DNA of 45,170 bases, from the NCBI RefSeq assembly GCF_000383795.1, contig NZ_KB912728.1, positions 179,779-224,948 on the forward strand. The letters are read 5' to 3'. A program made the position numbers and the translations under genes. The notes beneath the pieces are model-generated. The model did no database searches. It saw nothing but the letters and a program-made list of their open reading frames with translations, and was not told the DNA's origin. The stretch comes from Saccharomonospora saliphila YIM 90502 (GTDB lineage Bacteria; Actinomycetota; Actinomycetes; Mycobacteriales; Pseudonocardiaceae). This document shows, one piece after another, positions 25,902 through 42,309 of this stretch (position 1 is its first letter; every line of letters begins with the position of its first letter).

Positions 25902-26108
25902 TCAGCGCGTCAGATCGTCGAGAACGGCCGTGACGTCGTTGGGATGGTAGTAGGTGCGCACACCCTCGGTATAACGGCGCCACCGGTGTTTGTGCGCATA
26001 GCGATAGATGGTGCCCTTGGGAATGCGCCAGATGCTGGCGATGTCATCGGCCGTCAAGCCCGCTACCGCGTGTTCACGGTCCACGTTCGTCCGCCTTGGT
26101 TGTGTCAT
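25902..26108 (-). CDS. Small helix-turn-helix DNA-binding protein
   Basis: This protein has 68 residues. ATG 26108 overlaps the upstream stop as ATGA, which fixes the start; a longer frame to 26147 lacks a ribosome site. The single domain is a MerR/excisionase-like HTH with wing: LTADDIASIWRIPKGTIYRY, then RYTEGVRTYYHPNDV. It is translationally coupled to the 206-residue protein upstream. Such pairs are widespread in streptomycetes and relatives, often near secondary-metabolite or integrated elements, and have no settled role. Confidence 0.75.
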   Translation of the reverse strand: MTQPRRTNVDREHAVAGLTADDIASIWRIPKGTIYRYAHKHRWRRYTEGVRTYYHPNDVTAVLDDLTR

Positions 26109-26725
26109 ATCAGACTGCCGAGCTTCGACCAGCGGGTCACCGGCCATGAGTGGACGGAGGATTCAGAGCAGGTGATCTCGGAACGAGGAAGGTCACCGTG
26201 GGGCCGGATGAGAGCGAAGAGCTCACCATCACACTCGGGGGCGGGGCAGTGGCCGACACGGATGCGTCTGCCGTCGTCCGGGTAGGCGACGCGGGCTGCC
26301 GTCCGCTCGAGGTGCCGGATCTCGTCCGCCAGATCGCCCGCGGCGGGATGCCGGCACAGCCAGTCGACATGGCGAACCAGGAATCGCGCCAGGACCGCGA
26401 TGTCCCGTGCCGGCGGCTCCACGCGTCGTTCCTCGGTCACGAGTCCCGCCCACGAGGCAAGAACCGTACGAATCGACGACCGTACTTCGACCGCGGCGGC
26501 ATTCATCGAGGAATCCCTGTTCGCGGCCCTGCGCGGGCGCTTCCGTATGACCCGTACTTCTTTCGACCCTTCACCCCCGCCGCAGTCCGAATACAGCGCG
26601 GGCAATGCCCGAAGCCCTTCTACGAGATGGTCTCGGCACGGGAGGCAGAGAAACCCTGCGTCGGCTCTCCGTGATCCCTTCCCTTCGCTTCTGCACGAGG
26701 CGGTCCGGCATAACTCGCTTCCCAT
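26105..26725 (-). CDS. Conserved actinomycete protein of OvmZ-like type with Cys pairs
   Basis: This protein has 206 residues. ATG 26725 has GGAGG 7 nt upstream. The N-terminus has paired cysteines (CRTASC, LCLPCRDHL) like a small zinc ribbon. The middle is helical (NAAAVEVRSSIRTVLASWAG, LARFLVRHVDWLCRHPAAGD), and the C-terminus has another Cys group (GHCPAPECDGELFALIRP, ITCSESSVHSW). This layout matches a common streptomycete family sometimes labelled OvmZ protein, function unknown. With the downstream HTH gene it probably forms a two-protein regulatory unit. Confidence 0.72.
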   Translation of the reverse strand: MGSELCRTASCRSEGKGSRRADAGFLCLPCRDHLVEGLRALPALYSDCGGGEGSKEVRVIRKRPRRAANRDSSMNAAAVEVRSSIRTVLASWAGLVTEERRVEPPARDIAVLARFLVRHVDWLCRHPAAGDLADEIRHLERTAARVAYPDDGRRIRVGHCPAPECDGELFALIRPHGDLPRSEITCSESSVHSWPVTRWSKLGSLI

Positions 26726-27990
26726 CACGCGGCCTCCGGGTTGAGGATCAGCTCAACTATTCGGAAATCGACGATCGTGTCGTGTGCTATTATCGACAAA
26801 TCGCCTATCCCCTGTGTTGCGCAGGGAGTAGATCGCAGGTTCGCTACGCCTGTCAACACCGAAGGTGGGGGAGTACGCGTGCGGGCCGAGTAGCGACCGA
26901 ATGGCGTAGAGACCGTCCGGTGGACGGGCTAACCGTGGATTACGACCGTTGGTCGTGGATGGTCGGTCCGTGGTTGGGTGAGCGTTGCGCTGGATGTTGC
27001 CGGCCCGTTACTTCCTGGGCGTTCGAGGTGGCTTGGTCGTCGGGTTCGGACCGTGGTCGAGCCGTTGTATCCCACGCGGCCGCTCGGATGAGCTCGTCGT
27101 GGCCTGCCGCGAACGTCCGCCGGGCGCGAGTCCCGCCCGGCGAAGGTCCTATGAGGGCTGTCGAATTGAGCTGGTTCTCCCGCGCAGCCCTGACCGGGCG
27201 GCGTGTGCCCCGGTAAGAGGGTCATGTGCCGCGGTGCGGGGCGTGGGCGCCCTGCCGACGTCCGGCCGCCACCCGTGAGAGCCGCTCGCTGGGCCGGAAC
27301 TCGTCGCCGGAGGCCGGACTCTGGTGGTTCAGGTCGACGGGTCGCAGCCCACGACCCGTGCGTTGTACGGGGGCTTCCGCCGAAAAGCGCAGTGGACTGC
27401 ACCAAGAGCAAGAAGAGGCGCGGCTCAATCGGTCCCGTGGGTCCCGGGCAGCCCTATGGGAAGACTCAAGAGCCGCTGAAGATGACCTTGACAGTCGGAC
27501 TGCGAAGACGGTACCAATATACTCGTTGTCCTGATTGTACCCACGTGAAAGAGTCGACGCGGAAACGTGAGGTCACAGTGGCGCCGTGAATGAGTAGCCA
27601 CAGTAGTTGAGTAAAGGTCGATCTGGTCTCCGTAGCGTTCTGGAGATGGTGATGATTTCTGTGGTGGACCGCTGTGACTGACCGGAAGCGACCGCTGCTG
27701 TAGGTCCGCGTCACCGCCGCGGACCGAATCCGGCCGGGAGCGGTGTCGTATTTGTCGGCGGATTCGTTTTCGTGCGCCGTGGCAAGCGGTTCGGAGGCAA
27801 CGTTCTGACCGTCTCGGTGCGTGGTCTGTGCGGTAACCGGGCGACCGGAATCGGTTCGCTGTTTTCCGAAGGGCGTGGACGGACCGGTGCGGTTCCGGTG
27901 CCGCGCTCTGTTGGTGTGTGTCAGAGTCGGGGGTCGTTCGGCGAGCGATCCGGCGGATTTTCGAGGACAGACGACAAGGAAGCGACGGGT
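26726..27990. other. Long gene-poor stretch before the biosynthetic cluster
   Basis: No gene is supported on either strand across about 1.2 kb; the open frames lack ribosome sites and family features. A promoter-like TTGACA (27488-27493) with TACCAA 18 nt later points toward the cluster but lies about 500 nt before the cupin start. The region may hold regulatory sequence, a small RNA, or decayed DNA. Confidence 0.35.
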
Positions 27991-28533
27991 ATGAGCGGTC
28001 TGATTGTCCCGCCCGGTGAGGGGCGACAACTGAACACGGAGATGCAGGAGATCACGTTCAAGGCCACCGCGGCGGACGGTTCGGCGATCTCGGTTTTCGA
28101 GGTGATGGTCCCGCCGGGGTTCGATGTCGGGGCGCACACCCACCAGCACTCGCAGGAGTTCTTCTACGTCCTTGAGGGGACGCTGGAGCTGCTCGCGTTC
28201 GAGCCGGTCGAGCGCACCGGCGACCGGTGGCAGCACTGGGAGTCCGCCGAGGGGGAGCGGGTCGTCCGTGCGGGGCCGGGTAGCTGCATGTTCGTCCCTC
28301 CCGGGTGCCCGCACGCGTTCCGGAACGCCACCGACGAGCCCGCGCGCATGCTGTTCCAGAGCTACCCCTCGCCCGATCACGAGCACTACTTCGAGGAGAT
28401 CTACGACATCTTCTCCGCGGGCCGGTCAATGAATCCGGAGGCCGTCCAGGAGCTGCGGGACCGTTACGACATCAATCAGATCACGCCGCTTCGCTTCGAG
28501 CCGCCCGCACACTCGCACGCCCAGGATCGGTAA
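27991..28533 (+). CDS. Cupin-domain protein, candidate tetrahydroxynaphthalene monooxygenase
   Basis: This protein has 180 residues; ATG 27991 follows AAGGA. The cupin barrel is clear: GAHTHQHSQEFFYVLEGTLE supplies the metal His-His-Glu set, and FVPPGCPHAFRN the later His. Cupins of the MomA type oxidise 1,3,6,8-tetrahydroxynaphthalene to flaviolin in naphthoquinone meroterpenoid pathways. As first gene of a cluster containing RppA, aminotransferase and ABBA prenyltransferases, this role is likely. A C-terminal helical extension (HYFEEIYDIFSAGRSMNPEA) extends beyond the barrel. Family certain, reaction inferred from neighbours. Confidence 0.82.
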   Translation: MSGLIVPPGEGRQLNTEMQEITFKATAADGSAISVFEVMVPPGFDVGAHTHQHSQEFFYVLEGTLELLAFEPVERTGDRWQHWESAEGERVVRAGPGSCMFVPPGCPHAFRNATDEPARMLFQSYPSPDHEHYFEEIYDIFSAGRSMNPEAVQELRDRYDINQITPLRFEPPAHSHAQDR

Positions 28534-28561
28534 CGCTCGACTCGGAACCCGAGGTGCCATC

Positions 28562-29716
28562 ATGGAGACGATTCCCCTGGTTCACGCGAGCTTGGGCGAA
28601 CAGGAGCTGGCGGCCGTCGCCGAGGTGTTCTCCTCGGGGTGGCCTGCCGGCCAGGGACCGAGCGGGAAGGCGCTCGAAGCCGAACTGGCCGAACGGTACG
28701 GTGTGGGCGACGCGCTCGCGCTGAGCAATTGTGGCGCCGCGCTCCATCTGTCACTGCTCGCGCTCGGCGTCGCGCCCGGTGACGAGGTGATCGTCGCGGA
28801 TTACACGTTCCCGGCTCCGGCCCATGCGGTGCGCTACGTCGGTGCGGAACCCGTCTTCGCCGACGTGCGCGCCGACACCGGCACTGTCGATCCCCGGGCT
28901 GTGGCGGACCTGATCGGTCCGCGAACGGTGGGCGTGATCGCGGTGGACACGGTTGGTCTGCCCGCCGACTACGCGGAATTGCAGTCCCTGGCCGACCGCC
29001 ACGGGCTGTTCCTCGTCGAGGACGCCGCCTGCGCTGTCGGGGCGACCTACCGCGGGCGGGAGGCGGGCACGCTGGCACCGGTGGCGTGCCTGTCGTTCCA
29101 CGGTCGCAAAGGCGCCACCAGTGGTGAGGGCGGGGCGTTGCTCGCCGCCGATCCGGCGCTCGGGGCAGGCGCGCGGCTGCGCTCGTCGTTCGGTATCGGG
29201 AGCATCTTCGAGCAGTCGCAGGAGGTCGGCCTGCCGATCCCGGTATTCGAGGAGATCGGGTACAACTACAAGTTGTCCGACATCGCCGCCGCGATCCTGC
29301 GGGTGCAGCTCGGCCGGATCGGCGAGCTGCTGGACCGCCGGAGCGCCGTCGCGGCACGCTACGGCGAACTGCTCGCGGACGAGGAACTCCTCACGGTGCC
29401 GACGGTGCCGCAGGACCGTACGCACGCGTGGCAGTCCTACATGGTGACACTCGATCCGGGCGTGGACCGCGCGGCGGTCGCCGCCGACCTCCGTTCCCAG
29501 GGGATCGGTTGCGGCCACGGGACCTGGGCGTGTCATCTGCAGCCCGTGTACGCCAAGGAGGGGTCGTGCCCGGTCTCGGCGGACCTCTTCCGGCGCAACC
29601 TCGCCATTCCGATGCATGCCGAACTGGACACGCAGCAGGTCGAACGGGTCGCGGAGGTCCTGCGCGATGCGGTTCGCACACACGCACGTCCGCACGGTGG
29701 CCGCCGGGCGGGGTAG
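28562..29716 (+). CDS. PLP-dependent DegT/DnrJ/EryC1/StrS-family aminotransferase
   Basis: This protein has 384 residues from ATG 28562, with GAGG 7 nt upstream and 28 nt after the cupin gene. The fold type I features are SNCGAALHLSLLALGV (phosphate and ring contacts), FLVEDAAC with the Asp for the pyridine nitrogen (Asp154), and SFHGRKGATSGEGG with Lys183 as the Schiff-base Lys. Most relatives act on keto-sugars, but no sugar genes are nearby. In furaquinocin-type pathways a homologue (Fur3) aminates the hydroxynaphthoquinone to 8-amino-flaviolin, which suits this cluster better. This functional call is inference. Confidence 0.85.
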   Translation: METIPLVHASLGEQELAAVAEVFSSGWPAGQGPSGKALEAELAERYGVGDALALSNCGAALHLSLLALGVAPGDEVIVADYTFPAPAHAVRYVGAEPVFADVRADTGTVDPRAVADLIGPRTVGVIAVDTVGLPADYAELQSLADRHGLFLVEDAACAVGATYRGREAGTLAPVACLSFHGRKGATSGEGGALLAADPALGAGARLRSSFGIGSIFEQSQEVGLPIPVFEEIGYNYKLSDIAAAILRVQLGRIGELLDRRSAVAARYGELLADEELLTVPTVPQDRTHAWQSYMVTLDPGVDRAAVAADLRSQGIGCGHGTWACHLQPVYAKEGSCPVSADLFRRNLAIPMHAELDTQQVERVAEVLRDAVRTHARPHGGRRAG

Positions 29717-29777
29717 GACGACGAATGACCGGCCCAGGCCGGATCGGGAAGCCAGAATCGATGTTCGGGAGGACGAT

Positions 29778-30686
29778 GTGTCCGAAACCGCTGAGTTGAC
29801 GCGTCTCTACTCGGCCCTTGAAGAATCGGCCGCGGTGCTGAACGTCCCCTTTTCGGGGGCCACGGTTCAGCCTGTCTTGACCGCGTACGGCGATGTGGTC
29901 CCGCACGCGATGATCGCCTTCAGGGTGACCAGCGCCGAGAGTGACGAGGGAGAGCTCGACTGCCGAATCCTGTTCCGGAAAGAGGTCGATCCGTACGCCG
30001 TGGCCTTGTCCGAAGGCTTCGTCCCGGCCTCCGGCCACCCCGTTGACGAGCTGCTCTCAAACATCCGCGAACGCTGTCCCATCGACAGCTACGGCATTGA
30101 TTTCGGGCTCGTCGGCGGGTTCAAGAAGATCTGGGCGTTCTTCCCCGAGGACGACTTCCAGCCGCTGTCGACGCTGGTCGAGATGCCGTCGATGCCGCGC
30201 AGCCTCGCAGCCAACGTCGAGTTCTTCGCACGGTACGGCCTGGACGACAGAGTGGGCCTGGTCGGCATCGACTATCACGACCGAACGGTGAACGTCTACT
30301 TCGGCAAGCTGCCGGGCGAGTGCCTCGATCCGGACGCTGTCCGGTCGATGCACCGGGAGATCGGCGTCGCGGAACCGAGTGAGCAGATGCTGAAGCTCTG
30401 CGAGCAGTCGTTCGGCATCTACTTCACGCTGAACTGGGACTCGCCGACCATCGAGCGGATCTCCTTCAGCGCGATCACTCCGGACCCGCTGTCGCTGCCC
30501 GTGCGGTTCGGCCCGAGGATCGAGCGCTTCGTCGAGAACTTCCGGCACGGCGCCGACAACCCCAAGATGGTGCATGCCGCGGTGAAGTCGACCGGCGAGG
30601 AGTACTACAAGATCCAGGCGTACTACCGGTGGCGGCCCCGTACGGTCAACCTGACCTCGGACGACTCCGCCGAGGTGTCCGCGTAG
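29778..30686 (+). CDS. ABBA-fold aromatic prenyltransferase (CloQ/NphB family), copy 1
   Basis: This protein has 302 residues, the normal size. GTG 29778 has GGAGG 5 nt upstream. Family features run through the whole chain: VQPVLTAYGDVVPHAMIAFR, DCRILFRKEVDPYAVAL, GIDFGLVGGFKKIWAFFPED, LVGIDYHDRTVNVYF, GIYFTLNWDSPTIERISFSA and EEYYKIQAYYRW at the end. These soluble enzymes attach dimethylallyl or geranyl groups to phenolic rings and usually do not need magnesium. The aromatic substrate should be the flaviolin-type product of this cluster. It shares the same blocks with the second copy at 34364, from which it has clearly diverged. Confidence 0.93.
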   Translation: MSETAELTRLYSALEESAAVLNVPFSGATVQPVLTAYGDVVPHAMIAFRVTSAESDEGELDCRILFRKEVDPYAVALSEGFVPASGHPVDELLSNIRERCPIDSYGIDFGLVGGFKKIWAFFPEDDFQPLSTLVEMPSMPRSLAANVEFFARYGLDDRVGLVGIDYHDRTVNVYFGKLPGECLDPDAVRSMHREIGVAEPSEQMLKLCEQSFGIYFTLNWDSPTIERISFSAITPDPLSLPVRFGPRIERFVENFRHGADNPKMVHAAVKSTGEEYYKIQAYYRWRPRTVNLTSDDSAEVSA

Positions 30687-30899
30687 GTGGGTTCCCGGCA
30701 CGCCACGGTGCCGCGCACGGTGTCGCGGTGCGCCGGCCTCGGCACTCTCGCCGGGGCGTTCCGCTCGACGGCGGTCCCGCCGTGGAGCACGCGGCCGGCC
30801 CGGCGACGTATCCCGGCACACGGGGAATCCCGTGCCGGACGCACGCCCCCGGTGCTGACGCGCCCCATGTCCTGTATTCGAAGAGGAAGGTGACCCGCC

Positions 30900-31448
30900 G
30901 TGGTTAGTCGGGAAGCGCAGCTGGTGGAGCTCGTCGATACGGACGGTGCTGCCAGCGGGTCCTGCAGCGTCGCCGAGGCGCACACCGCGCCCGGCCGGCT
31001 CCATCGGGCATTCTCGGTGATTCTGCTGGACGATCTCGGCCGGATCATGCTCCAACAGCGGGCCGCGGAGAAGAGCCGGTTCGCGTTGCGGTGGGCCAAC
31101 GCCTGCTGCAGTCACCCGGCGCCGGGGCAGAGTGTGTTCGACGCCGCCGATCAGCGGCTGCGTGAGGAGATCGGCGTGCGCGAGGTGGAGCTGCACCAGG
31201 CCGGTGTGTACCTCTACCGGGCGCAGGACCCGGAGACCGAGCGGGTCGAGCACGAGTACGACCACGTACTCGTCGGCCGCGTCACGGCCGACCCGGTCGT
31301 GCGTCCTGACCCGGCCGAAGTGGCCGATGTCCGCTGGGTGGACCCGGACCACGTCTGGGCGGACATGGCAGGCAATCCGGACCGGTATGCCCCCTGGCTC
31401 GAGGGCGTGCTCAAGGTGGCGACCGAGGCCACCGGCCGACCGTCGTGA
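30900..31448 (+). CDS. idi: Isopentenyl-diphosphate delta-isomerase type 1
   Basis: This protein has 182 residues from GTG 30900, after GGAAGG. It is a Nudix-fold IPP isomerase: LHRAFSVILLDDLGRIMLQQ, then RWANACCSHPAPGQSVFDAA with the catalytic Cys, LREEIGV with metal-binding Glu, EHEYDHVLVGRV with the second catalytic Glu, and VRWVDPDHVW. It converts isopentenyl to dimethylallyl diphosphate, the donor for the ABBA enzymes beside it. No mevalonate-pathway or geranyl-diphosphate-synthase gene is in the window, so the cluster only tunes the supply of the five-carbon donor. Confidence 0.95.
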   Translation: MVSREAQLVELVDTDGAASGSCSVAEAHTAPGRLHRAFSVILLDDLGRIMLQQRAAEKSRFALRWANACCSHPAPGQSVFDAADQRLREEIGVREVELHQAGVYLYRAQDPETERVEHEYDHVLVGRVTADPVVRPDPAEVADVRWVDPDHVWADMAGNPDRYAPWLEGVLKVATEATGRPS

Positions 31449-31522
31449 GCCGCGGTGCCCGTTCCCGCGTTGGCTGGTGGCCGTCCGCGCGTCCCGCGCG
31501 CACGACAAGGGAGACAGTCACG

Positions 31523-33160
31523 ATGAAGGACTCAGTCATTCACAGGTCGATTCGAAAGCACGGCCTTCATCTCGGCATGGTGCCAAGGTGGGCCGTGGCC
31601 AGGAACCCCTCGACGGAGCTCACACTCGATCACGACCTGGACGCCGTCCCCGAGATGGGACGGCATCTGACCGTGGCCGAGCTCGCCGAGCACGTCGACG
31701 ACCTCGCGGGACGGCTGTGGACGGCCGGGGTCCGGGCCGGCGAACACGTCGCGATCCACAAGAGCGCCAACTTCGATGTCTGGATGCTCGCGACCGCGGC
31801 CGCGCAGACCGGAGCGGTTCCCGTGATGCTGTCGCCGGCGCTGGACGGCGCGACGGTCGGCGCGCTGCTGGAGCGGCTGGACAGACCACACCTGCTCAGC
31901 GACGCGACCAAGCTCGACGCGCTTGGTGAGGTCCCGGTCGGGGACCTCACCAAGCAGGTGATCACCGTGGCGGGCTCGGTGCCGGGGACCGTCTCGCTCG
32001 CCGAACTCGACGGTTCCGCGAGAGTCCGGCCGGTGCTCAACGGACCGGACGATCCCGCGATGATCACCCACACCTCCGGGACCACGGGGATTCCCAAACT
32101 GATCGTGCACACGCCCCGCAGCATGGGAACCCGGCTTCGGCCGCAGTGGTGGCTCCTCTCGTTGATCAGGAAGCAAGAGACCGTCGCCATCGACGTTCCC
32201 TTCGTGCACTCCCGGACGTTCGCGGCGATGTCCCTGGTGTTGCTCAAGGCGATGCCGACCCTGTTGCTGAACGACCCCGAGCCGGAACAGGCGGCCGAGT
32301 CCTTCGTCAGGCACCGGCCGGGACTGGTCGAAGCGCTGCCGAACGCGCTCATGGCATGGGAGAAGCTCGCCGACGACCCACGGAAGCCGTTCTCCTCGAT
32401 CAGGTACTTCAGCAGTACCTTCGACGCGATCCATCCCCGCACGATCGGTCGTATCCTCGACTCGTCCGACCGGCGGATGCCGTTGTTCGTGCAAATCTAC
32501 GGACAAAGCGAGGTGGGTCCGGCCGTCGGTCGGTTCTACCTGCGTCGGTTCCTCGACCGAGCGAACGGCCGCTGCGTCGGTTGGACCATGCCGGGCTGTG
32601 CGAAGGTCCGGGTGGTGAGCAGGGACGGCAACCCGCCGTCGAAGAACAATCCCGGACACATCGAGGTCGCGTGGCCGGGCCTGGCGAAGACCTACCACGG
32701 CGAGGCACAGCGGTACGCCACCAACCGCTACGGCGACTGGTGGCGTACCGGGGACATCGGTTACCGCACCAGGCTGGGCTGTCTGCACATGTTCGACCGG
32801 GAGATCGACATGATCGACGGAGTGCGCAGCACCTTGGAGGTCGAGGACCTGATTCTGGACCGGCTGGAGGAGCTGGGTGAGCTCGTGCTGGTCCGGGGTT
32901 CGGAGTCCGAGCCGATCCCGGTGTTGTGCACCAACGACGATCAGCCACTGGACCGGCAGCGCTGGCACGCGGCCGTGGGCGACCTGCCCCAACTGGCCGA
33001 GCCGGTGCAGTTGCCGGAGGCCGAACTGCCCAGGACCGCCACGTTGAAGGTGCAACGGGTCGAACTGTCCCGCACGCTCCGGGAGCGAATCGGACGTGCG
33101 CGAGACGTGTCGGCAGACGAGTGCGGTGAGCGAACAGCACGGAACGGAGCGAGCCAATGA
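31523..33160 (+). CDS. AMP-forming ligase of the ANL superfamily
   Basis: This protein has 545 residues. ATG 31523 follows AAGGGAG; a GTG at 31445 would overlap the isomerase gene. The nucleotide loop THTSGTTGIPK, the IYGQSEVGP motif, the GDWWRTGDIGYR hinge segment and a C-terminal Lys in RTATLKVQR are all present, so adenylation should work. ANL enzymes activate acids as acyl or aryl adenylates and CoA esters. No carrier protein or acid-forming gene is nearby. Some ANL relatives act as ATP-dependent diazotases on aromatic amines. With the aminotransferase in the cluster, that is a testable alternative. It overlaps the next gene by 4 nt. Confidence 0.85.
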   Translation: MKDSVIHRSIRKHGLHLGMVPRWAVARNPSTELTLDHDLDAVPEMGRHLTVAELAEHVDDLAGRLWTAGVRAGEHVAIHKSANFDVWMLATAAAQTGAVPVMLSPALDGATVGALLERLDRPHLLSDATKLDALGEVPVGDLTKQVITVAGSVPGTVSLAELDGSARVRPVLNGPDDPAMITHTSGTTGIPKLIVHTPRSMGTRLRPQWWLLSLIRKQETVAIDVPFVHSRTFAAMSLVLLKAMPTLLLNDPEPEQAAESFVRHRPGLVEALPNALMAWEKLADDPRKPFSSIRYFSSTFDAIHPRTIGRILDSSDRRMPLFVQIYGQSEVGPAVGRFYLRRFLDRANGRCVGWTMPGCAKVRVVSRDGNPPSKNNPGHIEVAWPGLAKTYHGEAQRYATNRYGDWWRTGDIGYRTRLGCLHMFDREIDMIDGVRSTLEVEDLILDRLEELGELVLVRGSESEPIPVLCTNDDQPLDRQRWHAAVGDLPQLAEPVQLPEAELPRTATLKVQRVELSRTLRERIGRARDVSADECGERTARNGASQ

Positions 33161-34227
33161 CACGGGAAGCCACACTCGCGCGGTTGCGCGAGTACATGGT
33201 GGGCCCCACGCGTTTCATGACCCTGCTGTCCTGCGTCGAGCTGGGCATCATCGACAGGCTTCGGGAGAAGCCGGGCATGACCGCGGCCGAGCTGGGAGAC
33301 ACGGTCGGCGTCAAACCCGATGCGGTCGAGCAGCTCTTGCACCTGCTCGTCAAGGAGGGCTTCGTCGCCCACGACGACAGCTCCGGGGGCTACACTCTCG
33401 ACGCCCTGGCGGAGGTGCCGGAAGCAGACCTCCGGCGTGCCCACTCCTACATGAACCTGATCAAGGTCGTGGCGCTGAGGCAACTGTTCTACCTGCCCGA
33501 GAGCGCGCGGGAGGCAGTTCCGGTCGGTCTGCGGGAACTCTACGGGCACGAAGGCACCCTGTACGACGCCGTGGCCGAGCACAGAGACCTGCGTGCGGCA
33601 TGGGCGCCGTTGATGAACACCGTCACGGCCAACACCGATCCCTGGTTCTTCGACAACATCGACATACCTCCCAAGGCGCGGGTGCTCGACCTCGCCGGAA
33701 ACACCGGCATCGGTGCGATCCATACGCACAAGATGACGTCCTCGCCGGACATCCACGTCACCACCTTCGATCTGCCGGAAAAGCGTGAGGAGTGCCTGGA
33801 GAACTTCAGGCAACACGGCGTGGAGGAGGACTCCTCGTTCATCGGTGGTGATGTCTTCGAAGGCGTTCCCGAAGGGTTCGACATCGTCCTGATCAAGCAC
33901 TTCCTGGACATGTTCGACCAGGACGACGTGTTCCGCATCCTCAACGGGGTGCACAAGTCGCTCGACGTCGGCGGGCAGGTCAACATCCTCGTGCCGGTCT
34001 ACCCTGAGGACGTACGCAGTCCCGACAACTACAATGTGGACTTTTTCCCCGCCTTCTTTCTCGGCTGTACGATGGGCCAGGGTGGACCGCAGAAGCTGTC
34101 CACCTACCAGAGTTGGTTGCGGGAGTGCGGGTTCGAGGTGACCAAGACCGTCACGAGGGATCCGGCCGATGTGCCACCCGACGTGATCCCGCAACAGGGG
34201 ATCCTGTGCGCGACGAAGGTCGAGTGA
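33157..34227 (+). CDS. SAM-dependent methyltransferase (plant-type O-methyltransferase family 2)
   Basis: This protein has 356 residues from ATG 33157, coupled to the ligase gene by ATGA. Residues 1-100 are a dimerisation winged helix (LSCVELGIIDRLREKPGMTA, VEQLLHLLVKEGFV). The SAM domain follows, with VLDLAGNTGIGAIHTH at motif I, less glycine-rich than the usual DxGGGxG. Then come TTFDLPEKREE, VLIKHFLDMFDQDD and LRECGFEVTKT. In the catalytic region DIVLIKHFLDMF keeps a His, as in O-methyltransferases. In related meroterpenoid clusters a methyltransferase alkylates the naphthoquinone on oxygen or carbon; which one cannot be settled here. Confidence 0.85.
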   Translation: MTREATLARLREYMVGPTRFMTLLSCVELGIIDRLREKPGMTAAELGDTVGVKPDAVEQLLHLLVKEGFVAHDDSSGGYTLDALAEVPEADLRRAHSYMNLIKVVALRQLFYLPESAREAVPVGLRELYGHEGTLYDAVAEHRDLRAAWAPLMNTVTANTDPWFFDNIDIPPKARVLDLAGNTGIGAIHTHKMTSSPDIHVTTFDLPEKREECLENFRQHGVEEDSSFIGGDVFEGVPEGFDIVLIKHFLDMFDQDDVFRILNGVHKSLDVGGQVNILVPVYPEDVRSPDNYNVDFFPAFFLGCTMGQGGPQKLSTYQSWLRECGFEVTKTVTRDPADVPPDVIPQQGILCATKVE

Positions 34228-34363
34228 CCGGCGCGACCGCCCCTTTTCGAGGATCACGGACCAGGGTCGACGCGGAGGGTGCGCGGGAGAGCGGTCGGTC
34301 ACTGTTGCCGTCCTGCTCTCCCACGCGGTCGAACGAGCACCGGACCCGACCATTGGAGGAGAT

Positions 34364-35293
34364 GTGCCCAAGGACGCCGACCCGAGAAGCAGCGTGTACT
34401 CGGCGATCGAGGAGGCGGCCGGCCTGATGGGAGCGCCCTGCTCACGGGAGCGGGTGTGGCCGATCCTGACCGCGTACGGGGACGGCATCAGCGAGGCCGG
34501 GATCGTGTTCAGTGTGCAGACGGGCGAACGTCATGCCGGCGAGCTCGACTACACCATCACGGTTCCCGCGGACGGCCCCGACCCGTACACCTCGGCTCTG
34601 TCGAACGGATTCCTCGAGGCCACGCAGCACCCGGTCGGCACCCTGCTCTCGGACATCCGGGCTCGATGTCACATCAGCGAGTACTTCATCGACTGCGGAG
34701 TCGTCGGCGGTTTCAACAAGGTCTACGCGCACTTCCCGCACGACCCGCTGAGCGTGGAGCGACTCGCCGAGGTCCCGTCCCTCCCGCGTTCGCTGGCCGA
34801 CAACCTCGGCTTTTTCCTGCGTCACGCGTTACGCGACGTGGCGATGATCGCGATCGACTACCGGAAGAAGACCGTCAACCTGTACTTCGCACAGCTGTCC
34901 GCCGAGTGCCTTCGTTCGGCCAACATCCGGGCGATGCTCCGGGAGAGCGGGCTTTCGGAGCTCGACGGACCGATGTTGGACTTCGCCCTGGGTTCCTTCA
35001 GGATCTATGTGACCCTGGCGTGGGACTCCGCGGGGGTCGAGCGGATTTCGTTCGCTTCCCTGATGAGCAGCGGCTGGGTGAACGCGGCTCTGTCGGAGTT
35101 TCCGGTTCGGATCGAACCCGAGATCGAGCGGTTCGTGAAGAACGCGCCACAGGCCTACTCCGGTGATCGCGTGCGGATTCTGGCGATCAAGTCGTCCCCT
35201 GGCGACGAGTGCCTCAACTTCGGGTCGTACTACCAGATCTCGCCGGTCGTGCGGAATCTGCTGGCGGCGCGGGCGGGCGACGCGGAACAGTGA
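34364..35293 (+). CDS. ABBA-fold aromatic prenyltransferase (CloQ/NphB family), copy 2
   Basis: This protein has 309 residues from GTG 34364, close behind TTGGAGGA. Matching blocks with copy 1 include ILTAYGDGISEAGIVFSV, GELDYTITVPADGPDPYTSA, VVGGFNKVYAHFP, IAIDYRKKTVNLYF, RIYVTLAWDSAGVERISFAS and FPVRIEPEIERFVKN. Many substrate-pocket positions differ between the copies, so it may use another acceptor position, another prenyl donor, or act after the methyltransferase encoded just before it. The pair suggests a doubly prenylated product or alternative products. Confidence 0.92.
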   Translation: MPKDADPRSSVYSAIEEAAGLMGAPCSRERVWPILTAYGDGISEAGIVFSVQTGERHAGELDYTITVPADGPDPYTSALSNGFLEATQHPVGTLLSDIRARCHISEYFIDCGVVGGFNKVYAHFPHDPLSVERLAEVPSLPRSLADNLGFFLRHALRDVAMIAIDYRKKTVNLYFAQLSAECLRSANIRAMLRESGLSELDGPMLDFALGSFRIYVTLAWDSAGVERISFASLMSSGWVNAALSEFPVRIEPEIERFVKNAPQAYSGDRVRILAIKSSPGDECLNFGSYYQISPVVRNLLAARAGDAEQ

Positions 35294-35513
35294 CGGCTCC
35301 TCGGCGAGGGTGGCGCGAGGCCCCACGGCGAAGCACGTACCCGGTTGAACAAGTGAAACTACCGGTTCACCGGCTTTCCGGAGTTGTGATGTCGCGAGGC
35401 CCTGACGGAGTTGTGGCAAGATCAGCTAGGCCGGTATATTGCGCTGCCGAGCAGCGGCACATGGCGCGTCGTCGGCCACTGGGGATCGCCACGATGTTAA
35501 GGAGAAGGAGTTC

Positions 35514-35897
35514 ATGAACCTGGCTCTGTGGATCGTCACCGGACTGCTGGCGGTGGTCATGGTGGTCGGCGGGACGACGAAGCTGTTCATCCCGAGGGAG
35601 AAGTTGGCCGCGACCACCCACGGGGGTTGGACCAACGACTTCAGTGACGGGTTCGTCAAGACCCTGGGAGCCGTCGAATTCCTCGCGGCGATCGGCATCG
35701 TGGTGCCGGCCGTGGTGAACATCGCGACGTTCATGGTTCCGGTGACCGCTGTCTGCTGGGTGTTGCTGATGATCGGTGCGATGATCACGCACCTTCGTCG
35801 TCAGGAGAAGCTTCCCGTCGCCGCGAACCTGATCTACCTGGCGATGGCTGCTTTCGTGGCATGGGGCCGCTTCGGGCCCGAGTCCTTCACCGGCTGA
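35514..35897 (+). CDS. DoxX-like integral membrane protein
   Basis: This protein has 127 residues; ATG 35514 follows AAGGAGAAGGAG. Four membrane helices are visible: ALWIVTGLLAVVMVVGGTTK, VKTLGAVEFLAAIGIVVPAV, TFMVPVTAVCWVLLMIGAMI and ANLIYLAMAAFVAWG. DoxX relatives are linked to quinone or thiol redox chemistry in the membrane. Its location inside a naphthoquinone cluster, followed by a hairpin, suggests a role in handling or protecting against the quinone. This is inference, and it may also be an unrelated passenger. Confidence 0.82.
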   Translation: MNLALWIVTGLLAVVMVVGGTTKLFIPREKLAATTHGGWTNDFSDGFVKTLGAVEFLAAIGIVVPAVVNIATFMVPVTAVCWVLLMIGAMITHLRRQEKLPVAANLIYLAMAAFVAWGRFGPESFTG

Positions 35898-35920
35898 TCC
35901 AGCCAGCCCCATAGCGAAGA

Positions 35921-35964
35921 AGGCCCTCGCCTCCCTCCCGGCCGAAAAGAGGGAGCGGGGGCCT
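35921..35964. terminator. Stem-loop after DoxX-like gene
   Basis: AGGCCCTCGCCTCCCTC (35921-35937) pairs imperfectly with GAGGGAGCGGGGGCCT (35949-35964), with a short AAAA-containing loop. It lies 23 nt after the stop and would end the first transcript of the cluster. Confidence 0.6.
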
Positions 35965-36453
35965 ACGCCAGGATCTCCGCCGTTTCGACCCGCGTAACCG
36001 TGTCCGTTCCCGGCAGTAGGGACGAAGGCGCCGGGAATTCGGGCGGAGACGAGAATACCCGGGCCCGGTCACCGTCGGCGGGCGCTCCCGGACCACAACG
36101 TCGCGGGCTGCGTCGTCCGCGTTGGTGGCCGGGCCCAGTTGTTGTCCTCGCCGGACGTTCGGCGCCGGTCGGCGCGGCGTACCCGCGGCGCGAGGGCAGG
36201 AAGCCCGAGCGATGCCGGATGTCGGCGGCGGTCGATCGCGTCGCCGGGGTCGGAGTCGCACTCGGATTTCGTGAGCGACGCCGGTCGTCGTGTGGCACGG
36301 AGCGGGCGTACCGGACGACACGACACAGTGCCACCTCCCGGCCCCGGTCCGGGAGGTAACAACGCTGTCGTCGACGCTGTGCGGCGCAGCTGAGCGAATC
36401 ACCGTGAAGATGCGTACGAATCAGGGGTAATCCCCCGGAAGGTAGATTCGGGT
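35965..36453. other. Intergenic region before the type III PKS gene
   Basis: About 490 nt without a supported gene; the frames seen are GC-rich shadows. The last 60 nt are AT-richer and contain GGGGTAATCCCCC and a GGAAGG ribosome site at about 36438, so the PKS gene probably has its own promoter here. Confidence 0.4.
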
Positions 36454-37503
36454 ATGCCAGTTCTATGTCGGCCGTCGGTGAGAGTTCCGGAACATGTCAT
36501 CACGATGGAGGAAACACTCGATTTCGCCCAGAGAGTGCATTCCGGAAAACCGCAGTTATCACTTGCTTGTCGGTTGATCCAGAACACCGGTGTTCGAAAA
36601 AGGCATATCGTACAGCCTATCGAGCAGACGCTTCGTCATCCCGGTTTCGAGGAACGCAACCGGATCTACGAAGCCGAGTCGAAGAAGCGTGTTCCCGAGG
36701 TGGTCGAGGAAGCACTGTCGAATGCCGATCTGGCGGCCCGTGATATCGACGCTATCGTATACGTGTCGTGCACCGGGTTCTTGATGCCGTCCCTGACCGC
36801 ATGGATGATCAATACCATGGGTTTTCGTTCCGACACGCGGCAGATCCCTATCGCGCAGCTGGGTTGCGCCGCGGGTGGTGCGGCGATCAACCGGGCCCAT
36901 GACTTCTGCGCCGCCCATCCCGAGAGCAACGTGCTGATCGTTGCCTGCGAGTTCTGCTCGTTGTGTTACCAGCCTGAGGACGACGATGTGAGTTCATTGC
37001 TGTCCGACGGGTTGTTCGGGGACGCTGTGGCGGCGGCGGTGGTGCGAGGGTCCGGGGGTGTGGGAGTGTCGCTGGAGCGGAACTCCTCGTATCTCATCCC
37101 CGGGACCGAGGACTGGATCTCCTACGCCGTGCGTGACACCGGCTTTCATTTCCGGCTGGATCGGCGGGTTCCCGGCACGATGGAACCCCTCGCGCCGGTT
37201 CTGGATGAGTTCGCGGCAGGGCACGGCTGGGACGTCCGTGACCTCGATTTCTACATCATTCATGCCGGTGGCCCTCGGATCTTGGACGACCTCGCGAAGT
37301 TCCTCGACGTCGATCGCAAGATGTTCCGCCACAGTTGGGCGACTCTGGTCGAGTACGGCAACATCGCGAGCGCGGTCGTGCTCGATGCGCTGCGGCGGCT
37401 GTTCGAGGAGGACGCCCCGTCCCCGGCAGCGTCCGGAATGGTCGCCGGTTTCGGCCCCGGAATCACCGCCGAGATGGCGGTGGGTAGCTGGGTCGTCGAC
37501 TGA
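36454..37503 (+). CDS. rppA: Type III polyketide synthase, 1,3,6,8-tetrahydroxynaphthalene synthase
   Basis: This protein has 349 residues, with ATG 36454 after GGAAGG. The sequence follows streptomycete RppA from start to end. The catalytic triad falls at exactly the positions known for the S. coelicolor enzyme: Cys138 in QLGCAAGGAA, His270 in IIHAGGPRIL and Asn303 in EYGNIAS. Cys106 in YVSCTGF, typical of THN synthases, is also present. The reaction condenses five malonyl-CoA to 1,3,6,8-tetrahydroxynaphthalene, which oxidises to flaviolin. It supplies the aromatic core for the cupin, aminotransferase, methyltransferase and prenyltransferase genes upstream. It lies after a terminator, so it is likely a separate transcript. 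Confidence 0.96.
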   Translation: MPVLCRPSVRVPEHVITMEETLDFAQRVHSGKPQLSLACRLIQNTGVRKRHIVQPIEQTLRHPGFEERNRIYEAESKKRVPEVVEEALSNADLAARDIDAIVYVSCTGFLMPSLTAWMINTMGFRSDTRQIPIAQLGCAAGGAAINRAHDFCAAHPESNVLIVACEFCSLCYQPEDDDVSSLLSDGLFGDAVAAAVVRGSGGVGVSLERNSSYLIPGTEDWISYAVRDTGFHFRLDRRVPGTMEPLAPVLDEFAAGHGWDVRDLDFYIIHAGGPRILDDLAKFLDVDRKMFRHSWATLVEYGNIASAVVLDALRRLFEEDAPSPAASGMVAGFGPGITAEMAVGSWVVD

Positions 37504-37751
37504 CCGGTCGGCGTCCCGTCTCCTCCGTACGCGATGACCACGCGACGGTACGAGCCGTCTCGTTGCTTTCGTGGCCGGGGGAGAACACACTGAAAAGGCG
37601 TGGGCGACTCCGCCGAAACGTCGTCGGCGCCTTCTCGAGCGATGCGTGAATCGGCCGGTTCTGTGGCCGATCACCGCGATCGGCGCATTCCCGGAAAAGA
37701 CCCGGACCACGATCGCCGATCGATTCTCCGACGAAGAAAGGACCACATCTC

Positions 37752-39302
37752 ATGGCTGCCTCCGAACCCTCCTCCCGCTTCGTGCTCCAGCGGAGGTCGT
37801 TGCTCGCCGGAGCCGCCGCGGCGGCGACGCTTCTCCCTCTGGGCAACGTCGGTGTCGCGACCGCCGCGCCGTCCGTGCGCTCGTCGTCGGGATCGACCAG
37901 TGAGTTCGACCTCGACACCGGAAACTTCATCCAGTACCTCTCCAAGAACGCCGACACCTCCGCCGTCTCCGAGTTCATCGCGCCCATGGACGTGACGATC
38001 CTCATCCGGTACACCTGCATGGCGCACAACGCGTGGTTCGACGCGTTGGCGCCCTACCACCCGACGGCGGTCGGCGTGTACTCCGACCTCGGGCGTCGCC
38101 CCGCCAGTGAGTCGGAGACCAACAGGAACAAGAACATCGCCGCTCTGTACTCCTGGCGCCACGTGATGGAAAGCGTGGTGCCCGCGGGTATGCCGACGTT
38201 CCGGAACCTGATGAACTCCTTCGGACTCGACCCCGACGACGATTCGGAGGACCCGACCACTCCGGTCGGCATCGGAAACCTGGCCGGTAAGGCCGTCGTC
38301 GAAGCCCGGTTGCGGGACGGGATGAACCAGCTCGGCGACAAGGGAGTCCGATACCACGGCAAGCCCTACAGGGACTACACCGGCTACCAGCCGGTGAACA
38401 CCGCGTACGAACTGAACGATCCGTCCCACTGGCAGCCGCAGCTTCTGGAGCACGGCCGTCGCCTCGGAGACGGCGACGGTGACATGGGCATGTTCATGAC
38501 CCAGGTCTTCACCACGCCGCAAATGCGCCTGGTGACGCCGTACACGTACAAGGATCCGAGCGGGTTCAGCATCCCGGTGCCCAAGCACACCGACCACACC
38601 AACGAGGGCCTGTACAAGAAGGTGGTGGACAGGGTGCTGGCGGCCTCGGCCGCGCTCACCGAAGAACAGAAGCTGAAGGCGGAGTTCTTCGACAACAAGT
38701 TCCTCGGTGTCGGTAAGTCGGTTCTCGCCGCGGCCGAGACTCATGATCTCGACCTGGACGGCTGGGTCCAGCTGCTCATGGTGACCGGGGTGGCGCTGTT
38801 GGACTCGCTTATCGCGTGCTGGCACTACAAGCACGAGTACAACGTCGTGCGCCCGTTCAGCGCGATCCGGCACGTCTACGGAACCAACACGGTGACCGCG
38901 TGGGGCGGGGCCGGTGTGGGCACCGTCAACGACATGCCTGCCAACGAGTGGGCCAGTTACCTCAACGTCGGCAACCATCCCGAGTACCCTTCCGCCTCCA
39001 CGACGGTCATCTCCGCTGAGGCGCAGGCGGCGCGTCGCTTCCTCGGCTCCGACGTTCTGGACTGGACCTACACCTATTCCGCCGGCTCGTCGCTGGTGGA
39101 GCCGGGAATCACCCCGGCCAACGACTATCAGCTTCACTGGGACACCTGGACCGACTTCGTTCAGGACAGCAGTAGCAGCCGGGTGTGGGGCGGGGTGCAC
39201 TTCGCGGAGTCGGCCGAGAACTCCATCGGATTCGGTACGCAGTTCGGCGACCGGGCTCACGAGTTCGTGCAGCGACACCTCGACGGCAACGTCAGCAAGT
39301 AA
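37752..39302 (+). CDS. Vanadium-dependent haloperoxidase family protein (NapH-like), Tat signal
   Basis: This protein has 516 residues from ATG 37752. A twin-arginine signal lies at residues 14-30 (LQRRSLLAG then an Ala-rich core). The vanadate-binding set is mostly kept: Lys360 and Arg367 in YKHEYNVVRP, and Arg477 and His483 in RVWGGVHFAESAENS. The central motif, PSGH in fungal enzymes, reads PSAS here (413-416), so the usual acid-base His is missing. Napyradiomycin-type pathways use several such proteins for chlorination, cyclisation or a non-redox ketol rearrangement. This one could be a halogenase or a NapH3-like isomerase. It follows the RppA gene by 248 nt and ends the cluster with a strong terminator. 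Confidence 0.88.
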   Translation: MAASEPSSRFVLQRRSLLAGAAAAATLLPLGNVGVATAAPSVRSSSGSTSEFDLDTGNFIQYLSKNADTSAVSEFIAPMDVTILIRYTCMAHNAWFDALAPYHPTAVGVYSDLGRRPASESETNRNKNIAALYSWRHVMESVVPAGMPTFRNLMNSFGLDPDDDSEDPTTPVGIGNLAGKAVVEARLRDGMNQLGDKGVRYHGKPYRDYTGYQPVNTAYELNDPSHWQPQLLEHGRRLGDGDGDMGMFMTQVFTTPQMRLVTPYTYKDPSGFSIPVPKHTDHTNEGLYKKVVDRVLAASAALTEEQKLKAEFFDNKFLGVGKSVLAAAETHDLDLDGWVQLLMVTGVALLDSLIACWHYKHEYNVVRPFSAIRHVYGTNTVTAWGGAGVGTVNDMPANEWASYLNVGNHPEYPSASTTVISAEAQAARRFLGSDVLDWTYTYSAGSSLVEPGITPANDYQLHWDTWTDFVQDSSSSRVWGGVHFAESAENSIGFGTQFGDRAHEFVQRHLDGNVSK

Positions 39303-39740: not shown

Positions 39741-40640
39741 ATGAAGATTGGCTTCACCCTGCCACAGATAGGCCCCCTCGGACGGGAAGCCGGGGAGGTG
39801 ATGCGCTTCGCTGAGGAGGCCGAACGCCTCGGCGCGGACAGCCTCTGGGTGGCCGACCGCCTCCTGGCGCCGGTCGAGCCCACCGTGGGATATGCCGGCG
39901 GGGACACGATCCCGGACGTGTTCCACGATGTGCTCGACCCGTTCGCGGTGATGTCCGCGGCCGCCGCGGTGACCGAGCGGGTGGAGATCGGCACCAACGT
40001 GCTGGTCGCCTCCTGGTACGCGCCCGCGGTGCTCGCCCGGTCGATGACCACGATCGACCGCCTCAGCGGGGGTCGGTTGATCGTGGGCCTCGGGACGGGT
40101 TGGTCCCCCGAGGAGTACCGGGCCGCCGGAGTCCCGATGCACGAGCGTGGTGCCCGCCTCGACGAGTGCCTGGACATACTCCAGGCGTGGTGGTCGGACA
40201 ACCCCGTCGTCTATTCCGGGAAGCACTGGACCGTTCCGGCGAGCCGGGTCGACCTCAAACCCGCCCGCGAGCCGCGTCCACCCGTGTATCTCGGCGGCTT
40301 CGCACCCGCGGCGACACGGCGGGTGGCGCAGCGGGCGGACGGGTGGCTGCCCGTGCACGTCCCGGAGTGGGGGCGGTTCGACCCGGCGGCCGTCACCGGG
40401 CCCCTGACCCGGATCCGGGAACTCGCACGGGACGCCGGACGCGATCCGTCGGAGCTGGGCGTGGTCCTGCGCGTGTATCCCGGTAGCGCCGCGTCCCTGG
40501 ACGGAGTACTCGACACCGTGGCCTTGGCGAGGTCTGACGGCGCGATCGAACACGCCTTCGTGGAGCTGATGAACGTGGCGCACACGGTCGACCACGCCCT
40601 GGAGGTCGTCGACCGGGTCCTGCGGGCCGCCCGCCGCTGA
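39741..40640 (+). CDS. LLM-class F420-dependent oxidoreductase
   Basis: This protein has 299 residues from ATG 39741. It is a luciferase-like TIM barrel: KIGFTLPQIGPLGREA at strand 1, RLGADSLWVADRL, VEIGTNVLVASWYAPAVLAR, and GRLIVGLGTGWSPEEYRAAG, the signature of the TIGR03619-type F420 group. A C-terminal PPVYLGGFAPAATRRVAQRA segment follows. It catalyses F420H2- or FMN-dependent reduction or oxidation of an unknown substrate. It lies just beyond the cluster terminator on the same strand, so it may tailor the naphthoquinone or be independent. Confidence 0.9.
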   Translation: MKIGFTLPQIGPLGREAGEVMRFAEEAERLGADSLWVADRLLAPVEPTVGYAGGDTIPDVFHDVLDPFAVMSAAAAVTERVEIGTNVLVASWYAPAVLARSMTTIDRLSGGRLIVGLGTGWSPEEYRAAGVPMHERGARLDECLDILQAWWSDNPVVYSGKHWTVPASRVDLKPAREPRPPVYLGGFAPAATRRVAQRADGWLPVHVPEWGRFDPAAVTGPLTRIRELARDAGRDPSELGVVLRVYPGSAASLDGVLDTVALARSDGAIEHAFVELMNVAHTVDHALEVVDRVLRAARR

Positions 40641-42230: not shown

Positions 42231-42274
42231 CGGCGCACCGCCGGGTCGGTGAGGGGGCATTGGCCCGCTCCGAC

Positions 42275-42292: not shown

Positions 42293-42309
42293 CTTCACCC
42301 GCATCGTCG

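Follow-up and report, generated by a model that had tools for sequence, protein, structure and literature searches.

The window, that is, the whole stretch of 45,170 nucleotides of Saccharomonospora saliphila YIM 90502 that was analysed, contains ten genes, all on the + strand and all open and full length, which extend from the ATG of a cupin gene (position 27991) to the stop codon of a vanadium-dependent haloperoxidase (VHPO) gene (position 39302). In order, they encode a cupin oxidase (27991..28533; Pfam Cupin_2 at 3.3e-17, obtained on a longer frame; 82.6% to the A. mzabensis protein across 178 aa), a PLP aminotransferase of the DegT family (28562..29716; PF01041, 1.1e-93), an ABBA aromatic prenyltransferase, PT1 (29778..30686; PF11468, 7.2e-71, 239 bits for a cut-off of 22), a type 1 isopentenyl-diphosphate isomerase, IDI (30900..31448; NCBIfam NF002995, 172.7 bits for a cut-off of 127), an adenylate-forming enzyme of the ANL superfamily (31445..33160; PF00501, 2.2e-39), a Fur6-like C-methyltransferase (33157..34227; 597.5 bits to Fur6, 8har), a second ABBA aromatic prenyltransferase, PT2 (34364..35293; PF11468, 2.8e-47, 162 bits for a cut-off of 22), a DoxX-like small membrane protein (35439..35897; PF13564, DoxX_2, 2.8e-22), a type III polyketide synthase, the tetrahydroxynaphthalene (T4HN) synthase RppA (36454..37503; 582 bits against 1u0m, spanning the full length), and the VHPO (37752..39302; PF22778, 1e-75, and PF21167, 1.5e-59). 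PT1 starts with GTG and its open frame reaches upstream to 29616; the start of the ANL enzyme is uncertain (31445 or 31523).

The same set of ten genes, in unchanged order, was found in two Actinopolyspora-type genomes at 71-88% amino-acid identity, namely A. mzabensis DSM 45460 (genome G200, loci L023/L041; 71-87%) and G448, of the same genus as A. mzabensis (locus L187; 72-88%). Since order and identity are kept in two genomes of another genus, the ten genes can be taken as one unit, and the co-directional set named in the first-pass annotation held in full. To our knowledge, no product has been assigned to the ten-gene cluster of either genome. In both, a decayed T4HN-synthase fragment precedes the cupin gene, whereas the window has no such fragment. 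The downstream genes of the window, encoding a luciferase-like monooxygenase (39741-40640), a Na:alanine symporter (40659-42230) and a P450 (42310-43503, - strand), and a LysR-type gene were dropped as cluster members, as no match to any of them was found beside the cluster in the compared regions of A. mzabensis and G448. The cluster occurred in 1/12 genomes of the genus of the window. The genome assembly to which the window belongs (G000) is 83.66% complete, that of A. mzabensis is 99% complete and G448 is a single contig. Among the titles listed in a search of open-licence literature, none dealt with this ten-gene cluster.

For wider comparison, 65 T4HN loci were defined by an aminotransferase at >=70% together with a T4HN synthase, and genes were counted in stored flanks of up to 10 kb. 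The cupin was present in 62/65 of these loci, the ANL enzyme in 56/65, an ABBA prenyltransferase in 35/65, the C-methyltransferase in 31/65 and DoxX in 9/65; the luciferase-like gene gave just 27-36% matches, in 4/65. The core-gene tree covered those T4HN loci that carry all three of aminotransferase, synthase and ANL enzyme, minus L091, L096 and L118.

Upstream of the run lies a divergent pair of genes on the - strand, encoding a small helix-turn-helix (HTH) protein of 68 aa (25902..26108; 65-85% identity over 48-55 aa in relatives) and a Cys-rich protein of ~207 aa belonging to no Pfam family (26105..26728; 49-70% identity beside related clusters). The start of the HTH gene overlaps the stop of the preceding Cys-rich gene. 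HTH homologues were found at L041 (A. mzabensis; L023 and L188 denote this place too), L187 (G448), L040, L094, L099, L098, L190, L046, L060 and L061, and Cys-rich homologues adjoined the cluster at L041, L187, L040, L094, L099 and L190, so that the pair is linked to the cluster in most IDI-type relatives; for two further IDI loci, L043 and L051, the stored flanks showed no Cys-rich homologue. The Cys-rich gene stood beside the cluster in seven carriers, picked because they were already known to have it, and in 0/3 genomes of the same genus without the cluster. A Pfam search of this protein with E up to 10 returned nothing useful and its AlphaFold model was weak (pLDDT 55.5). The cluster probably includes this pair (25902-26728), which may act as its regulator; the span of 27991 to 39302 given earlier is correct for the ends of the co-directional run but missed the pair.

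The RppA-type synthase retains its catalytic triad (C138, H270, N303), and together with the cupin, aminotransferase and prenyltransferases it bears out the original assignment to the furaquinocin/napyradiomycin class of prenylated naphthoquinone clusters. The aminotransferase was 80-87% identical to four homologues in other T4HN loci. By analogy with the literature, the cupin would convert T4HN to a mompain-type quinone and the DegT aminotransferase would form 8-aminoflaviolin, which PMC12670698 describes as the proposed common intermediate. On the basis of PMC12814520, the pathway here probably runs via 8-aminoflaviolin to pentahydroxynaphthalene as intermediate, flaviolin more likely being a shunt product, which corrects the flaviolin-based reading first suggested. 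The methyltransferase was identical to Fur6 at 260/355 aligned residues (73%) and, from sequence, looks Fur6-type rather than NapB5-type.

The gene first annotated as an ANL ligase is better read as encoding a diazo-forming enzyme, probably a nitrite-dependent diazotase. Nitrite-making genes (creD/creE-like) were present in the stored flanks of 16/65 T4HN loci in contrast with 0/15 control loci, the remaining 49/65 having none there; near the cluster on plasmid pl_2, the lyase scored 818 bits against an NCBIfam nitrosuccinate lyase cut-off of 650. The nap cluster has a diazo-forming enzyme, which is conserved across fur, nph and fnq (PMC12670698, in part). The translation of the window gene contains the motif THTSGTTGIPK. 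Against this reading, the model of the AvaA6 diazotase, which acts on another substrate, was only its third-best match, at a score well under the cut-off (NF058622; 83 bits vs. 975). In the ava and cma pathways, AvaA6 and CmaA6 are likewise ANL enzymes which use ATP and nitrite to form a diazo group that is later replaced, although their substrates are 3-aminocoumaric and 3-aminoavenalumic acid and an NADPH-dependent enzyme, AvaA7, takes part (PMC10777205, in part); no such gene, nor any separate reductase for the diazo group, was recognised in the cluster studied here. Among ANL relatives outside T4HN clusters, creD/creE occurred in 3/13 regions, two of them (L027, L028) overlapping, which together with the other neighbours is suggestive only as support for a diazotase; one of these relatives has a BFD-domain reductase and a molybdopterin oxidoreductase nearby, another an arylamine N-acetyltransferase.

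creD/creE were not found in the window, in its genome (83.66% complete) or in the one-contig G448. CreE had no match in that incomplete genome, where the best CreD match was 47% identical; a similar match (48%) in two cluster-free genomes of the same genus suggests that this protein is probably PcaB. Nitrite would thus come from elsewhere or from genes in the missing part of the assembly. CreD/CreE are also absent from 72/134 ava-type diazotase clusters (PMC10777205, in part). As the ANL enzyme is likely a diazotase, the C8 amino group is likely cryptic, and the aminated end product proposed at first is not expected.

Both prenyltransferases of the first annotation were recovered as PF11468 proteins. 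In a quick tree, PT2 fell in a 27-row clade (SH-aLRT 100) with L179, one prenyltransferase of a nap-type locus of S. phytophilus. A split (90) placed PT1 together with S. phytophilus L165, but the two belong to separate groups (20 rows, 90, for PT1; 17 rows, 82, for L165). L165 and L179 are presumed nap enzymes, as their contig also carries near-NapH1 and near-NapH3 genes. The nearest PDB entries to PT2 were 7fhe and 1zb6 (213-214 bits). No mevalonate genes were found, in agreement with the first reading, and neither the genome of the window (83.66% complete) nor that of A. mzabensis (99%) yielded an HMG-CoA reductase. There is no polyprenyl synthase among the ten genes; two are encoded in the window genome outside the cluster. 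Since the mevalonate pathway was present in only 11/35 Streptomyces strains with an ABBA enzyme (PMC4650096, in part) and two polyprenyl synthases lie elsewhere in the genome, the missing mevalonate genes are uninformative on chain length, and dimethylallylation does not follow from them or from the lack of a GPP synthase. Prenyl donors, regiochemistry and halide are not readable from sequence.

The VHPO agreed with NapH1 at 9/11 residues compared, the differences being D to N and G to A; structure 9ptr also has A at the latter position. All NapH1-type vanadate-binding and catalytic residues are kept (K, R, S, S at the H404 position, R, H and a further K). VHPO trees were built from 40 matches reduced to 30 loci, of which L132 (no frame) and L144 were left out, giving 28 loci plus three PDB sequences (31 rows); a second tree had 29 rows, without L135 and L136. 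The window VHPO and the A. mzabensis enzyme formed their own branch, outside the NapH1 and NapH3 clades.

The cluster of Micromonospora endophytica DSM 45430 (L042/L190) has cupin, aminotransferase, PT1, IDI, ANL enzyme, C-methyltransferase, PT2 and VHPO in equal relative order, but its T4HN synthase comes first, creE-creD lie between PT1 and IDI, and no DoxX match was found; its VHPO is 64% identical to that of the window, with GDH in place of GNH. The nap cluster shares the T4HN core, the aminotransferase and diazo enzyme, a C-methyltransferase, two ABBA prenyltransferases and VHPO chemistry, whereas it has three VHPOs (NapH1, NapH3, NapH4), mevalonate genes and a NapB5-type methyltransferase, in contrast with a single VHPO, on a branch other than NapH1 and NapH3, here. 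With fur, the core is shared up to the C-methyltransferase. A related paper, on Je 1-369, reports a single prenyltransferase together with a polyprenyl synthase, and mevalonate genes for the original fur cluster (PMC9686526, in part); relative to the fur set described in the literature, the window adds a second prenyltransferase and a VHPO. No characterised cluster was close enough to name a product, as the first annotation had anticipated in proposing a different compound.

All these factors taken together make it probable that the cluster directs the biosynthesis of a C-methylated, probably twice-prenylated naphthoquinone meroterpenoid. By analogy with the fur, nap and mfq clusters, RppA would form T4HN, the cupin would oxidise it and the aminotransferase would yield 8-aminoflaviolin; the ANL enzyme would activate nitrite with ATP and diazotise the amino group, and reductive loss of the diazo group would give pentahydroxynaphthalene. 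The Fur6-type enzyme would then C-methylate this intermediate, PT1 and PT2 would attach one prenyl chain each, and the IPP isomerase would maintain DMAPP, the isoprenoids presumably deriving from the MEP route. Finally, the single VHPO would oxidise or halogenate the prenylated ring, leading to a dearomatised, rearranged or cyclised and possibly halogen-free product, with the Cys-rich/HTH pair probably regulating the genes.

Other readings were weighed against this route. That PT1 and PT2 serve two separate products, only one acting on the naphthoquinone as in mixed clusters, appears unlikely: the nearest PDB entry to PT1 is 4ee6 (265 bits), which we take to be the phenazine enzyme EpzP, but 4ee6 falls outside the 20-row group of PT1, the ten genes include none for phenazine or another second scaffold, and they stay together in two other genomes. 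Moreover, among seven T4HN loci that have a VHPO, the stored flank held both prenyltransferase types in 4 (PT2 only in 2, none in 1). A deletion of mfqM without significant change in meroterpenoid output, MfqW being the naphthoquinone enzyme, speaks for two products (PMC12814520, in part). It is less probable still that the VHPO is a NapH3-type enzyme, catalysing only a non-redox alpha-hydroxyketone rearrangement that shifts the prenyl chain. NapH3 was its best PDB match (598 bits vs. 543 for NapH1), and across the 31 rows N replaced D in GDHPEYPS only in the window and A. mzabensis rows, NapH3 with three near kin, and L128. However, the window VHPO shares with NapH1 and 9ptr a K and an S that are T and F in NapH3 and its close relatives, and an AU test rejected joining the window and A. 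mzabensis enzymes to the NapH3 clade (p 0.003, for a group named after the first tree); a second VHPO to carry out the oxidation was not found in the genome (83.66% complete). Its top PDB score had at first suggested a NapH3-like assignment, which the residue table and the trees led us to discard.

An acyl/aryl-CoA or amide ligase giving an aminated, dimethylallylated flaviolin, as first proposed, would fit the NCBIfam result, in which the ANL enzyme scored highest against a long-chain acyl-CoA ligase subfamily, and amino-flaviogeranins do exist (PMC7463872, in part). We consider it very unlikely given the recurrence of the ANL enzyme with this aminotransferase, the nitrite-making genes nearby and the diazo-forming enzyme named in the literature; besides, none of the reactions inferred for the cluster genes yields a carboxylic acid substrate for a ligase. 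The restriction to one genome in the genus could also reflect a decaying or silent relic, but the open frames, the intact catalytic residues of synthase and VHPO, and the order and sequence conserved with another genus render this highly improbable.

The diazotase-based route to a doubly prenylated product thus remains our preferred reading. More tentatively, the lone VHPO might combine the roles that napyradiomycin pathways divide between NapH1 and NapH3 (oxidative dearomatisation, and prenyl migration or cyclisation). Its substrate would be a C-methylated naphthoquinone with two prenyl chains, from which a diazotase fed by general-metabolism nitrite had removed the C8 nitrogen added earlier, and rare actinomycetes would then make a new structural class. 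The cluster does not allow a product to be named; the pathway type is known, whereas this branch, with its single haloperoxidase, and its product have not been previously characterised. Among T4HN meroterpenoids are antibacterial and cytotoxic compounds, made by pathways with unusual enzymes, such as selective haloperoxidases and those of cryptic amination and diazotisation. Being compact and conserved, this unit provides a simple system for the action of a lone VHPO on a prenylated naphthoquinone and for asking how a diazotase works without nitrite genes of its own, and it extends the T4HN meroterpenoid class well beyond Streptomyces.

All ten genes of the set proposed in the first-pass annotation are present at the places it assigned them, and all are on the forward strand. 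They encode a cupin (27991-28533), an aminotransferase (28562-29716), a first ABBA prenyltransferase (PT1; 29778-30686), an IPP isomerase (IDI; 30900-31448), an adenylate-forming ANL enzyme (31445-33160), a methyltransferase (33157-34227), a second ABBA prenyltransferase (PT2; 34364-35293), a DoxX-like protein (35439-35897), the T4HN synthase (36454-37503) and a vanadium haloperoxidase (VHPO; 37752-39302). Intergenic gaps range from -4 to 248 bases, with 556 bases ahead of the T4HN synthase, and the contig spans 330 kb of a 4.03 Mb assembly that is 83.66% complete. In PMC12670698, 8-aminoflaviolin is the proposed common intermediate, reached by oxidation to mompain and transamination, and is converted to pentahydroxynaphthalene by reductive deamination; that paper describes the diazo-forming enzyme as conserved across the clusters fur, nph and fnq, with nap having it too. 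Two other papers report 8-aminoflaviolin from three genes (type III PKS, monooxygenase and aminotransferase) in a heterologous host (PMC7463872) and shunt product as the likelier status of flaviolin (PMC12814520). Every gene of these early steps is contained in the window. This is a genuine, intact-looking T4HN meroterpenoid cluster.

Directly downstream (39741-44712) lie genes for a luciferase-like monooxygenase, a Na:alanine symporter, a P450 (reverse strand) and a LysR-type protein, none of which had a match beside the Actinopolyspora-type clusters in the fetched regions. Genes for an ArsR-like HTH protein and, after it, a protein of the glyoxalase family occupy 25086-25780, immediately upstream of the cluster-linked gene pair described below, and at 18001-20000 the G+C content drops locally (0.58 vs. 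about 0.69) with positive GC skew. The same contig carries a second type III PKS-like match (30%) at G000:C141:23243-24184.

The ten genes recur as a unit. The ANL enzyme was matched at 1e-40 in 27 of 298 genomes of the order, the window genome counted in, and four of 17 fetched ANL regions (L023-L026) contained the T4HN core; one of these four, from A. mzabensis DSM 45460 (G200), has all ten genes in identical order. The aminotransferase was matched at 1e-150 in seven of 249 family genomes, among them G448, placed in the same genus as G200 by group code (the basis of all kinships here), in which all ten recur in unchanged order, 72-88% identical to the window. Within the window's own genus, the cluster was present in one of 12 genomes. 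A GTDB genome scan with the aminotransferase alignment retained the best 80 of 126 relatives (records close to the window genome may be absent), and 65 of these loci combined an aminotransferase of at least 70% with a T4HN synthase. In the stored flanks of these 65 (10 kb at most, often less), we found a cupin in 62, the ANL enzyme in 56, any ABBA prenyltransferase in 35, a C-methyltransferase in 31, DoxX in nine, and IDI and VHPO in seven each; the last two occurred jointly in two of the 65, those of A. mzabensis and Micromonospora endophytica. Fifteen of the loci L102-L119, with aminotransferases 52-67% identical to the cluster copy, had neither T4HN synthase nor cupin hits nearby, and seven had a second DegT gene close by; they represent a different pathway. 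Aminotransferases of at least 60% were also found on 15 plasmid records.

When four core proteins were joined in a quick 55-row tree (midpoint root only), the window grouped with the two Actinopolyspora-type rows (support 100), within a 27-row half containing all seven IDI-bearing loci; L087, the nap-type locus of S. phytophilus, fell in the opposite half, as did L086 and L092, which have NphB-like enzymes. Most related loci, that of M. endophytica among them, have the T4HN synthase gene immediately 5' of the cupin; in the window and the Actinopolyspora-type clusters it follows DoxX. Because synthase fragments remain before the cupin in both Actinopolyspora-type genomes (G448, L187:17114-17293, 52% over 62 residues, E 2e-13; A. 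mzabensis, L041, about 9141-9320, 39% over 62 with a stop inside, E 9e-5), the gene appears to have been duplicated or transferred in this lineage, with decay of the old copy. No significant fragment was detected before the cupin in the window.

The methyltransferase shares 260 of 355 aligned residues with Fur6. PMC12670698 names sites that distinguish NapB5 from Fur6; when these are mapped by number alone, the window enzyme agrees with Fur6 at Y98, D252 and T306 (Fur6 numbering) but carries Q at the position of Fur6 V347.

In a quick prenyltransferase tree (81 rows, 68 of them different, including one very long row, L157), PT2 and the S. phytophilus enzyme L179 shared a 27-row clade (100), and PT1 fell within a 20-row group (90). 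The other S. phytophilus enzyme of that contig, L165, was placed with 4ee6 in a neighbouring 17-row group (82); a split (90) sets this group and that of PT1 apart from the PT2 side. Near-NapH1 and near-NapH3 proteins are encoded on the S. phytophilus contig as well. We take 4ee6 to be EpzP, 1zb6/7fhb to be NphB and 1u0m to be the S. coelicolor synthase. By best-hit labels among the best 80 of 126 relatives, a PT2-type gene lies directly 5' of the VHPO in five of seven VHPO-bearing T4HN loci (L042, L052, L054, L077 and L098, the exceptions being L041 and L087), and a PT1-type gene directly 5' of IDI in six of seven IDI loci, creE-creD intervening in L042. Outside the cluster, the window genome encodes two polyprenyl synthases, and HMG-CoA reductase was not found in this 83.66% complete assembly. 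The lack of mevalonate genes, from which a different product had been argued, is weak evidence, since PMC4650096 reports that, of 35 Streptomyces strains carrying an ABBA enzyme, only 11 had the mevalonate pathway.

The ANL enzyme is a probable diazotase; the weak match of the AvaA6 diazotase model counts against this reading. The linear plasmid pl_2 from Streptomyces sp. KMM 9044 bears a T4HN cluster (L191, NZ_CP113912.1, 3609-22195) with ANL, methyltransferase, ABBA prenyltransferase, undecaprenyl diphosphate synthase family and DUF6851 genes, neighboured by creE/creD-like genes and a mevalonate kinase. The neighbouring lyase scored 818 bits with the nitrosuccinate lyase model (cut-off 650); for the FAD/NAD(P)-binding protein beside it, NCBIfam gave no match at 1e-18, hence the CreE label derives from place and annotation. 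With this pair, first noticed on the one plasmid and counted elsewhere afterwards, as queries, creD/creE (one or both) were found in the stored flanks of 16 of the 65 T4HN loci (both in nine, ANL also in 12) and in none of the 15 other aminotransferase loci, among the best 80 of 126 relatives, and in three of 13 non-T4HN ANL regions. The M. endophytica cluster itself contains creE-creD, located between PT1 and IDI. CreE had no match in the window genome (83.66% complete) or G448, and two weak 33% pieces in G200. The best CreD matches in these three genomes reached 47-49%; that of the window genome is probably PcaB, since two of three cluster-free genomes of the same genus carry a similar one (48%). 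CreD of at least 60% was present in three of eight tested carriers of IDI-bearing clusters (G000, G200, G448, G300, G298, G319, G321 and G301). Absence of creD/creE here is not unusual, as 72 of 134 ava-type diazotase clusters also lack these nitrite genes according to PMC10777205. The ANL relatives of the 13 regions outside T4HN clusters (L027-L039, 37-58% identity) may belong to further diazo pathways; a molybdopterin oxidoreductase and a BFD-domain reductase lie near that of L031, and an arylamine N-acetyltransferase gene adjoins that of L028.

The window genome (83.66% complete) yielded a single VHPO. Among 26 genomes picked from the loci, 17 had at least one, and nine of these exactly one (ten if two G322 pieces are one gene); Streptomyces sp. 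SBT349 (G301, L043) gave nine haloperoxidase matches, six on its T4HN-cluster contig. NapH3 was the top PDB score. Two trees, of 31 and 29 rows, paired the window enzyme with that of A. mzabensis alone, outside the NapH3 and NapH1 clades; union of this pair with the NapH3 clade, a grouping picked once the first tree had been seen, was rejected by an AU test (p 0.003). In the 31-row residue table, the window enzyme reads K K R N S A S R G V H, NapH1 K K R D S G S R G V H, 9ptr K K R D S A S R G V H and NapH3 T K R N S G F R A A H. Judged from these residues, the window enzyme is expected to bind vanadate and may be able to halogenate. According to PMC8407142, NapH1 hydroxylates and chlorinates, and NapH3 acts in an alpha-hydroxyketone rearrangement; the product of the window cluster may possibly carry no halogen.

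Two reverse-strand genes, 1.3 kb upstream of the cluster, encode a Cys-pair protein of no Pfam family (26105-26728) and a small HTH protein (25902-26108), the start of the latter overlapping the stop of the former. The Cys-pair protein was found beside six related clusters at 49-70% identity and in parts of seven further loci at 29-55%; it was not found in the stored flanks of IDI loci L043 and L051. It adjoined the cluster in 7/7 carriers (50-100%), which had been preselected for it, and occurred in none of three same-genus genomes without the cluster; the HTH gene was matched in ten loci. The pair is linked to this cluster type, and the presence of an HTH protein and the divergent arrangement suggest that it probably regulates the cluster.

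Judged by their described gene sets, the window cluster belongs to neither nap nor fur, and no characterised member could be identified in its branch. Two points slightly reduce our confidence in the main reading: PT1 shares no subclade with the nap-type partner, and carriers had been preselected for the upstream pair. We hold it quite probable that the locus directs formation of a C-methylated, probably twice-prenylated naphthoquinone meroterpenoid, in a cluster that functions like the fur and nap pathways.
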